A stretch of DNA of 64,000 nucleotides from Salinirubrum litoreum (GTDB taxonomy: Archaea; Halobacteriota; Halobacteria; Halobacteriales; Haloferacaceae). Each line of letters starts with the position of its first letter. The stretch's first letter is position 1. Shown one piece after another: positions 5,145-43,653 of this stretch. Under the pieces are notes generated by a model that had not been told where the DNA came from, did no database searches, and saw nothing but the letters and a program-made list of their open reading frames with translations. The stretch is taken from the NCBI RefSeq assembly GCF_020567425.1, contig NZ_JAJCVJ010000001.1:496001-560000 (forward strand), read 5' to 3'. Made by a program: the position numbers and the translations under genes.

Positions 5145-6830
5145 TCACATCGCCGCGCCGGGTTGGTACTCGCCGAACTCGTCGCGGAGCGTGTTGCAGA
5201 TCTCCCCGACCGTGGCGTAGGCCTTCACCGCGTCGACGATGGGCGGCAGGAGGTTCCCGTCGCCCCGTGCTGTGTCCCGAAGCGCCGCGAGGGCGTCTTC
5301 GACCGCCTCGTCGTCGCGGTCGGCCCGCACCGACTCCAGCGACTCGACCTGCCGGCGCTCGTCCTCCTCGGTCACCTCCTCCACGTCCATCTGTGGCTCG
5401 TCGTCCTCGACGGTGTACTCGTTGACCCCGACGATGACGCATTCGCCCTGCTCGATCTCGCGCTGTCGGTCGTAGGCAGTGTCCTGGATCTGCCGCTGGA
5501 CCCACTGGTTCTGTACTGCCGGGAGCATCCCGCCCTTCCCGTCGATCTCGTCGATGATCTCGAACGCCTCCGCTTCGATGTCGTCGGTCAACGACTCGAC
5601 GTAGTAACTGCCCGCGAGGGGGTCGATGGTGTCGGCCGCACCGGACTCGTGAGCCAGAATCTGCTGGGTCCGCAGGGCGGTCCGGACGGACTTCTCTGTC
5701 GGCAGCGAGAGGGCTTCGTCCTTCCCGTTGGTGTGGAGCGACTGGGTCCCGCCGAGCACGGCGGAGAGCGCCTGGTACGCGACCCGGACGACGTTGTTCT
5801 CGATCTGCTGGGCGGTCAAGGTGGAGCCGCCGGTCTGGGTGTGGAACTTCAGTTGTTTCGACTTGGGGTTCTCGGCACCGAACCGCTCCTCCATGATCTG
5901 GGCCCACATCCGGCGGGCCGCCCGGAACTTCGCGGCCTCCTCGAAGATGTTGTTGTGGGCGTTGAAGAAGAACGAGAGCTGTGGGGCGAAGTCGTCGACG
6001 TCCTGCCCGGCGTCCAGTGCGGCTTCCACGTACTCGATCCCGTTGGCGAGGGTGAACGCGATCTCCTGGGCCGCCGTCGAACCGGCCTCGCGGATGTGGT
6101 AGCCCGAGATGGAGATGGTGTTGAAGTTCGGCGTCTCGTCGGCACAGAACTCGAAGATGTCCGTGATGAGTCGCATCGACGGCTCCGGCGGGTAGATGTA
6201 GAGGTTGCGGGCGATGTACTCCTTCATGATGTCGTTCTGGATCGTCCCGCGCAGTTGCTCGCGGTCCACGCCCTGCTGATCGCCGACGGCGACGTACATC
6301 GCCAGCAGGACGGCGGCGGGCGCGTTGATCGTCATCGAGGTGGACACCTCGTCCAGCGGGATGCCGTCGAAGACGGTCTCCATGTCGGCCAGCGTGTCGA
6401 TGGCGACCCCGCTCTTCCCGACTTCGCCGGCGGCCATCTCGGCGTCGGAGTCGTAGCCCATCTGCGTCGGCAGGTCGAAGGCGAGCGACAGGCCCGAGGA
6501 GCCGTTGTCGATCAGGTACTGGAAGCGTTCGTTGGTCTCGGCGGCGGTGCCGAAGCCGGCGTACTGGCGCATCGTCCAGAGTCGCCCCCGGTGCATCGTC
6601 GGGTAGACGCCGCGCGTGTACGGTTCCTCGCCGGGGAAGCCGAGGTCTGCGTCGTACTCTAAGTCGGCCACGTCGTCGGGGGTGTAGAGCCGGTCCACCT
6701 CCTGTCCGCCGGTGTCGGTGGTGAACGTCTCCTCGCGCTCGCCGAATCGGTCGAGCGTCGGCCCGAGCGTCTCCGCTTCCCACTCCTCCCGCGCGGAGCG
6801 AATCTCCGCCAGGTCGTCGGGATCGAACAT
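5145..6830 (-). CDS. mcmA1: Methylmalonyl-CoA mutase, large (catalytic) subunit
   Basis: The 561-residue protein is the substrate-binding TIM-barrel half of adenosylcobalamin-dependent methylmalonyl-CoA mutase. Length matches the split archaeal form, whose cobalamin domain is a separate small gene; that gene is not in this window. 'WTMRQYAGF' contains R88 and Y90, equivalent to the Arg and Tyr that select methylmalonyl-CoA over isobutyryl- or 2-hydroxyisobutyryl-CoA, and 'SGYHIREAG' carries the radical-controlling Tyr-His pair. It interconverts methylmalonyl-CoA and succinyl-CoA in propionate and odd-chain/methylaspartate-cycle metabolism. The TATA box CTTAAG is 26 nt from the ATG, so the transcript is probably leaderless. 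Confidence 0.96.
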
Positions 6831-6937: not shown

Positions 6938-6979
6938 TCGCCGACGTGACGATGCGGTGTCGTCGCTCGTCGGGTGAAA

Positions 6980-7437
6980 ATCGTAGAAACACGACGGACG
7001 GCTTGGGCCTGAACGGGGGACGTTTTCCCCGGCCCGTACGACCGTAAACCACTACTACGCTGGCTTTATCCGGGCTTTCACCGGCTGTTACCGTGTCCGA
7101 GACTGTCGCCTCGGTGTCCGGGTCCGATCCCCCTTCCGGGTTCTCGGGTCCGGTCCGACACTTTCGCGCCGGTCGGCGTTAGTCGGGCTCGCACCGACAG
7201 TTGCCTGCTTCGCGGCTCTGTTTCCCGAACACCACTTACGCGGTGTCCGGTACTCGGTCTTGACGCCCACCGCCATGGCGGCCAGGTGGTGGGCCGGTTC
7301 GGTTCTCCTTCGGAGCGTTGTCCTCGTTTCCCTGTGACGGGAAGTTCGGTTGTTGCCCCTCACACCCTGCTTTTCGATTCCGTCGAACCGATCAGCAACG
7401 TGTCGTTCAGTGTGCCCCCGTACGTCGTGGGCAACAC
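6980..7437 (-). ncRNA. Predicted structured non-coding RNA, about 460 nt, family not recognised
   Basis: This gap has no acidic, haloarchaea-like reading frame; the longest frame is strongly basic, typical of non-coding DNA here. On the minus strand a TATA box (7459-7466) predicts a start near 7437, exactly where an 8-bp stem begins (7436-7429 pairs with 7358-7351). Further hairpins: a TTCGA/TCGAA stem inside it, TTCCC/GGGAA, CTCC/GGAG, GCCCACC/GGTGGGC, an ACACC/GGTGT stem with CCG/CGG extension, a 7-bp stem capped by a GAAA loop (7172-7155), a CCGA-GAA-CCC arm capped by GGAA (7147-7124), CCGAG/CTCGG (7114-7097) and a terminal hairpin 7035-7005 before T tracts. It lacks the RNase P core words and the SRP helix 8 motif. 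An untranslated role is inferred. Confidence 0.55.
7005..7035 (-). terminator. Hairpin and T tracts ending the predicted RNA
   Basis: On the minus strand GGGCC-GGGG pairs with CCCC-(6 nt)-GGCCC, followed by T-rich DNA at 6989-6987 and 6980-6977. This is the best candidate for the 3' end of the structured RNA and separates it from the mutase promoter. Confidence 0.45.
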
Positions 7438-7458
7438 TACAGTAGGACGCGATAGTAG

Positions 7459-7466
7459 AAATACTT
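7459..7466 (-). promoter_or_regulatory. TATA box for the structured RNA
   Basis: AAGTATTT on the minus strand is the only A/T-rich octamer in the area and lies 26 nt upstream of the first paired base of the predicted RNA. No open reading frame with haloarchaeal composition starts downstream. Confidence 0.5.
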
Positions 7467-43578: not shown

Positions 43579-43653
43579 GCTCTGGTGGTGTAGTCCGGCC
43601 AATCATATCACCCTCTCACGGTGATGACCAGGGTTCAAATCCCTGCCGGAGCA
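43579..43653 (+). tRNA. tRNA-Glu (anticodon CTC)
   Basis: The acceptor stem GCTCTGG (43579-43585) pairs with CCGGAGC (43646-43652, one G-U pair) and the discriminator is A (43653). The anticodon arm TCACC/GGTGA encloses the loop CTCTCAC with anticodon CTC, reading Glu GAG. The T arm GGG-TTCAAAT-CCC is canonical and the D arm has the archaeal GTGTAGTCCGGCCAA word. No intron and no encoded CCA. It is preceded by a TATA box and lies between the cupin and the lipoprotein gene. Confidence 0.97.

Follow-up and report, generated by a model that had tools for sequence, protein, structure and literature searches.

An uncatalogued structured RNA of extremely halophilic archaea that accompanies the RNA-free RNase P HARP

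A stretch of about 460 nt in the 64,000-nt window analysed here (the whole stretch of Salinirubrum litoreum DNA shown above) represents a family of structured RNAs found in extremely halophilic archaea and not catalogued before, and this family is very probably linked in function to HARP, an RNA-free RNase P. That the stretch is a real structured RNA is practically beyond doubt. The link between the RNA and HARP is strong, and from it we infer a mechanism, of which we favour, with some reserve, a form in which the RNA works as a partner that binds and controls HARP, be it as antidote, scaffold or dedicated substrate.

Fold and conservation of the RNA

The structure was drawn by hand on alignment A1, in which 13 homologues were aligned by sequence after their longer variable inserts had been shortened. 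In it 95.5% of cells pair and both sides vary in 22 of the 39 pairs; 500 shuffles gave nothing as good, and slid versions pair at 30-44%. Alignment A4 holds 27 sequences, 26 of them absent from A1. Here 32 of the 40 pairs of the original helices have changes on both sides. With helices P1, P1b and Px added the count rises to 44 of 53 (matched by 0/500 shuffles), and 87.9% of cells are paired, as against 77.2% in shuffled and 27-47% in slid versions; this test is not independent for the three added helices, whose recognition drew in part on the sequences tested. Conservation across Halobacteria and covariation this strong on nearly all-new sequences bear out the earlier note, which had proposed a long folded non-coding RNA from the letters of the window. 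Energy folding of the 460-nt strand beats 100 of 100 shuffles (z = -4.4), and from the window copy alone it yields P1, P1b, P2, P3, P4, P5 and P9.

The features, in window coordinates and in the direction of transcription, are as follows.

7455..7466, minus strand: TATA-like promoter element AAGTATTTCTAC, from its sequence and an A+T peak at the same upstream distance in 48 homologues
6978..7437, minus strand: whole RNA, about 460 nt, ends predicted, from conservation, covariation and folding (z = -4.4)
7418..7429, minus strand: P1 5' strand, pairing with 6990-7001 (11 bp and one mismatch) and closing the whole RNA
7414..7417, minus strand: P1b 5' strand, pairing with 7005-7008, changes on both sides in 4/4 pairs
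7404..7410, minus strand: P2 5' strand, pairing with 7009-7015, changes on both sides in 7/7 pairs
7362..7403, minus strand: P3 hairpin, 98% of cells paired in A1, more poorly aligned in A4 (67%)
7312..7359, minus strand: P4 stem enclosing P5, with the conserved GUAANA hexaloop and the GAGGUCAACG strand
7305..7308, minus strand: Px 5' strand GGAG, pairing with 7016-7019, one A.C mismatch in the window copy
7291..7296, minus strand: P6 5' strand, pairing with 7030-7035, changes on both sides in 5/6 pairs
7266..7289, minus strand: P7, variable hairpin, a hairpin of different sequence standing at the equivalent place in homologues
7226..7259, minus strand: P8 5' strand (7256-7259, pairing with 7040-7043), AGUA/GAA loop-E-like flank and P9 hairpin with a GUAA loop
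7044..7222, minus strand: variable insert, long in the window copy, short or absent in many relatives
7183..7197, minus strand: T-arm-like hairpin UCGG[UGCGAGC]CCGA, from a motif count of 22 versus 0.29 expected
7070..7084, minus strand: T-arm-like hairpin CCGG[UGAAAGC]CCGG, from the same motif search
7016..7029, minus strand: conserved GGGAAAACGUCCCC strand, including the Px 3' strand (7016-7019)
7009..7015, minus strand: P2 3' strand, pairing with 7404-7410
7005..7008, minus strand: P1b 3' strand, pairing with 7414-7417
6990..7001, minus strand: P1 3' strand, pairing with 7418-7429
6978..6989, minus strand: T-rich presumed terminator, from the peak of T content just past the 3' end in homologues

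In the core, P1, P1b and P2 close a junction that holds P3, P4/P5 and the Px-P6-P8-P9 domain. All five aligned P1 pairs change on both sides in A4, and the two ends of an RNA form a more stable pairing (mean -23.1 kcal/mol) than ends swapped between RNAs (-16.0). P4 is paired in 100% of cells in A1, and P5 changes on both sides in 4/4 pairs in A4; Px occurs among homologues as GGAG/CUCC, AGAG/CUCU, GAAG/CUUC and GGAA/UUCC; P9 and P8 are paired in 96% and 88% of cells in A4, with GUA and GAA nearly invariant, as is GAAAACGU in most Halobacteria copies. In relatives, inserts of very different length join two conserved blocks. The 8-bp stem with which the earlier note had closed a 79-nt domain (about 7435-7427 with 7359-7351) is present in the window copy but competes with the conserved P1 and P4, and the true closing stem of the RNA is P1 (7429-7418 with 7001-6990). 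Likewise, the hairpins with GAAA (7165-7162) and GGAA (7137-7134) loops, which that note had singled out, lie outside the conserved core, within the variable insert (7222-7044).

The predicted transcription unit and the family

Transcription is predicted to start near 7437, from the TATA-like box at 7466-7455. In 48 homologues A+T content reaches its maximum (0.70) between 50 and 41 nt ahead of the model start, and a TATA-like word lies within the 60-nt upstream window in 25 of them, compared with 3 of 48 in the next window farther up; T content is highest 14-23 nt past the model end. Judged from these base compositions, the two peaks fit a single independent gene, a predicted transcription unit, and agree with the promoter and the T-tract terminator originally proposed for the window copy, the box being correctly placed and the A+T peak at the matching distance.

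The RNA lies between two divergent genes: one on the plus strand, from 7635 onward, codes for a solute-binding protein (so named from its own sequence alone), the other on the minus strand for methylmalonyl-CoA mutase, whose ATG is at 6830. A position upstream of the mutase is thus correct, but homologues stand beside other genes and the adjacency is incidental. The chance that the RNA is a 5' regulatory element of the mutase, for example a cobalamin riboswitch, is negligible: it does end about 150 nt before the start codon, and its T-loop hairpins recall a motif of that riboswitch, but it ends independently and is closed by its own stem, matches no riboswitch in Rfam, lacks T-loops in its short forms and adjoins HARP or other genes in relatives. 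These genomic contexts refute a mutase riboswitch, and cobalamin riboswitches were also rejected as a class, there being no Rfam match and the relatives lying beside other genes. Two further candidates were set aside. As a protein-coding region, the ORFs across the window RNA leave the paired changes unexplained, and a mobile element is at odds with the many family f1 copies that remain at one conserved locus.

At the gathering thresholds of Rfam 15 nothing matched in the window RNA, the only match in the window being a tRNA at 43579, and a permissive scan (up to E = 10) gave the RNA chance-level matches only; among about 20 homologues none reached threshold, and only tRNAs outside the RNA matched. 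The absence of a known family, as first suspected, thus extends from the window copy to these homologues. Archaeal RNase P RNA (RF00373) was rejected at both levels of the window search, and archaeal SRP RNA by the lack of a model match in window or homologues, in line with the exclusion of both from sequence words in the earlier note. The genome's true RNase P RNA lies elsewhere (G000:C2:608145, 161 bits). The new RNA resembles RF00373 in being a long folded archaeal RNA tied, through HARP, to RNase P activity, but gives no covariance match to it. ROOL, GOLLD and OLE are likewise long, intricately folded RNAs of modular domains; the halophile RNA differs in lineage, in having no Rfam match and in that a protein partner is indicated. 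A literature search of partial coverage found no description of the family, which may have been described elsewhere.

In a blastn search of 60 relatives, 13 (one being the window's own genome) held pieces of the RNA, for the most part query 118-259 and 436-483, which confirmed its conservation. R1, a covariance model built from the 13 homologues, detects the RNA at E <= 0.001 in 111 genomes out of 391 from the class Halobacteria; these carriers come from 44 of the 86 genera sampled. We counted 107 genomes as firm carriers, among them one (G384) for which the class scan gave no better than E = 5e-7 and which was accepted on a fuller search at 76.7 bits. On the window copy the R1 match stops at 7183, because of the long insert; the 3' half was positioned manually, and this placement was verified. 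Among the named carriers are Haloprofundus marisrubri, Halegenticoccus soli, Halorarius litoreus, Halorussus species and Halosimplex carlsbadense. The only other carriers in the phylum draws belong to a second class, in which 3/3 sampled genomes have both the RNA and HARP; McrA in one of the three is why this class may be Methanonatronarchaeia, which is a guess. In two of its loci (L115, 8240-8570; L116, 9890-10220) P4 and Px are separated by an additional hairpin, which is absent from the aligned Halobacteria copies.

The window's genome holds a second copy (G000:C1:588852-589140; L050, 9853-10141) that scores higher than the window copy; its HARP gene maps to G000:C1:725096, its gene for the RNA ligase Rnl3, the known companion of HARP, is on contig C4, and neither RNA copy is beside HARP. 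Elsewhere, G021 carries two complete tandem copies (L059, 9751-10005 and 10195-10448), each preceded by an A+T-rich promoter-like stretch. In two genomes of genus g27 the RNA reaches about 900 nt (G026, L081, 9415-10280; G363, L082, 9810-10674), enlarged by several tandem copies of the inner P8-P9 domain in one RNA.

Association with HARP and the ligase

Clustering of neighbouring ORFs at 61 loci revealed that in different families the RNA has a PIN-domain protein, about 220 aa long, as its neighbour. This neighbour is HARP, as seen both from the PIN_5/RNA_lig_partner profiles (TIGR03875, 262 bits; PF08745, 266 bits) and from similarity to a solved RNA-free RNase P (PDB 7e8j, E = 9e-40). In about ten genera its gene is separated from the RNA core by about 40-170 nt, in convergent orientation in some and in divergent orientation in others (L051, L052, L056, L058, L062, L083, L102, L106, L107, L120, L126, L127 and L129; L106 and L130 are one species), while the chance of such adjacency is about 1e-4 per genome for one gene. 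In G338 the gene order is HARP, ligase, RNA, and on two Halorussus megaplasmids the RNA occupies an unannotated gap between genes for an 'RNA ligase partner protein' and HalOD1.

Of the same 391 genomes, 161 encode HARP (scored above the cut-off) and 121 encode the ligase (TIGR01209). The RNA and HARP occur together in 101 genomes, the RNA without HARP in 6, HARP without the RNA in 60 and neither in 224, an association (101/107 RNA genomes) with Fisher p = 9e-43 when genomes are treated as independent. By genus, in counts tallied by hand from the result tables and made with no species tree, HARP is present in 39/40 RNA genera versus 18/46 others (p = 2e-9). Presence and absence of the two also largely coincide within genera g24 and g6, the exception being G362 (g6), which has HARP and the ligase without the RNA.

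The ligase never occurs without HARP (121/121 ligase genomes have it), which repeats the finding of Seshadri and Gopalan 2025 (PMC12153264). Of the 40 HARP genomes without the ligase, 39 have the RNA and a single one, the 85%-complete draft G376, does not, and HARP without either partner is essentially absent from the 391-genome sample. Where HARP and the ligase are both present, about half the genomes (59/121) have no RNA.

Two sets of genomes count against reading the RNA as a HARP partner. One is the 60 of 161 HARP genomes without the RNA; a rescan of these with a wider model returned only two marginal matches (G391:C15:48516 and G343:C43:40450), possibly divergent copies. The other is the RNA genomes without HARP, of which G093 and G219 are 99% complete and were rechecked, the other four being 82-89% complete. 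Both G093 (L091) and G219 (L093) keep the RNA without HARP and without the ligase, and the G093 RNA appears to share downstream sequence with its relative G338, as if HARP and the ligase had been lost.

Could certain lineages or salt regimes simply retain both genes, with no joint action? Both are patchy, the RNA is found in two classes only and genomes of one genus are not independent, but the closeness of the two genes in about ten genera (up to about 170 nt apart, in two orientations), at a chance of about 1e-4 per genome, together with the largely coincident presence and absence within g24 and g6, makes such an indirect association very improbable.

Possible roles of the RNA beside HARP

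Direct binding of HARP by the RNA is putative but rather likely. The T-loop of tRNA has the form UNNRANY. A search for insert hairpins NNNG[UGNRANY]CNNN with full 4-bp stems found 22 in 16/57 RNAs, as against 0.29 expected from flanks; the search required pairing, and the stems vary yet remain paired. On this motif, the insert hairpins have the form of a tRNA T-arm, and the T-psi-C loop of tRNA is what PbHARP grips (PMC9051087). They are found in long forms, the window copy among them, while short forms have no T-loops, and since they occur in only 16/57 RNAs they cannot be the sole binding feature; their presence showed no association with that of the ligase (p = 0.36).

In the mechanism we propose, the RNA would bind the HARP oligomer, partly by mimicry of the tRNA elbow, and once bound would occupy the tRNA-binding surface of HARP and restrain or redirect the nuclease. 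HARP would need company, whether the RNA (as decoy or scaffold), the ligase (able to reseal cuts) or both. HARP forms a dodecamer (PMC8266387), and the repeated inner domains of G026 and G363 would suit such an oligomeric partner. The RNA occurs without HARP and HARP hardly ever without either partner, which is the pattern expected of an antidote; deletion of HARP in Haloferax volcanii, which gave no growth phenotype (PMC12153264), counts against an antidote-type partner. Inhibition of HARP by the RNA is put forward as putative and somewhat doubtful.

In type III antitoxins the RNA consists of short tandem repeats, which precede the toxin gene and are transcribed together with it. Like type III toxin-antitoxin systems of the ToxIN kind, the present system sets a structured RNA beside the gene of a nuclease that is rarely without a partner; unlike them, it has one large fold with its own predicted promoter, and HARP is on the opposite strand where adjacent. 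The repeat form of those antitoxins was looked for and rejected, most members read being a single fold of about 270-460 nt, and G026 and G363 alone repeat a domain of about 120 nt several times.

Should the RNA instead be a cofactor, it and HARP would form an RNP in which the RNA positions substrates or joins HARP dimers, giving HARP a task beyond its reach alone. The same genetic linkage would follow, the core is large and intricately conserved beyond a decoy's needs, and the repeated inner domains fit a multivalent scaffold; published work has HARP acting alone on pre-tRNA in several species, however, and 59/121 HARP and ligase genomes manage without the RNA, so that we regard a cofactor as unlikely. 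Less likely still is a dedicated substrate, trimmed by HARP like pre-tRNA, with the ligase perhaps circularising ends held by P1. P1 does bring the ends together, the T-arm-like hairpins resemble the HARP recognition site and the ligase has a known circularising activity on RNAs (PMC12153264), but the predicted start, only a few nucleotides before P1, leaves hardly any leader for trimming, the RNA often occurs where the ligase is missing (39 genomes with HARP and RNA), and its near-constant presence in ligase-less HARP genomes would go unexplained. By rank, a decoy or restraint, or a redirecting scaffold, fits, and a dedicated substrate fits less well.

We lean slightly towards the broader view that in halophilic archaea the RNA-free RNase P HARP has a dedicated large RNA partner, in which case the enzyme would act there as part of an RNP or under RNA control, and RNA and ligase would be its partners, singly or together. 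The HARP-Rnl3 pair of Seshadri and Gopalan 2025 (PMC12153264) concerns the same enzyme and evidence of the same kind, co-occurrence and adjacency. The main text of that paper names a protein partner only and makes no mention of the RNA. The RNA is here a further partner of HARP, and it is found in nearly all sampled HARP genomes without the ligase.

Recent papers (PMC10941002, PMC12153264) raise the question of which role HARP plays in archaea that possess an RNA-based RNase P as well. An RNA that accompanies HARP, is often its immediate neighbour and is nearly always present where the ligase is missing makes that role experimentally approachable, and the family would give the archaea a further large RNA class, previously uncatalogued.
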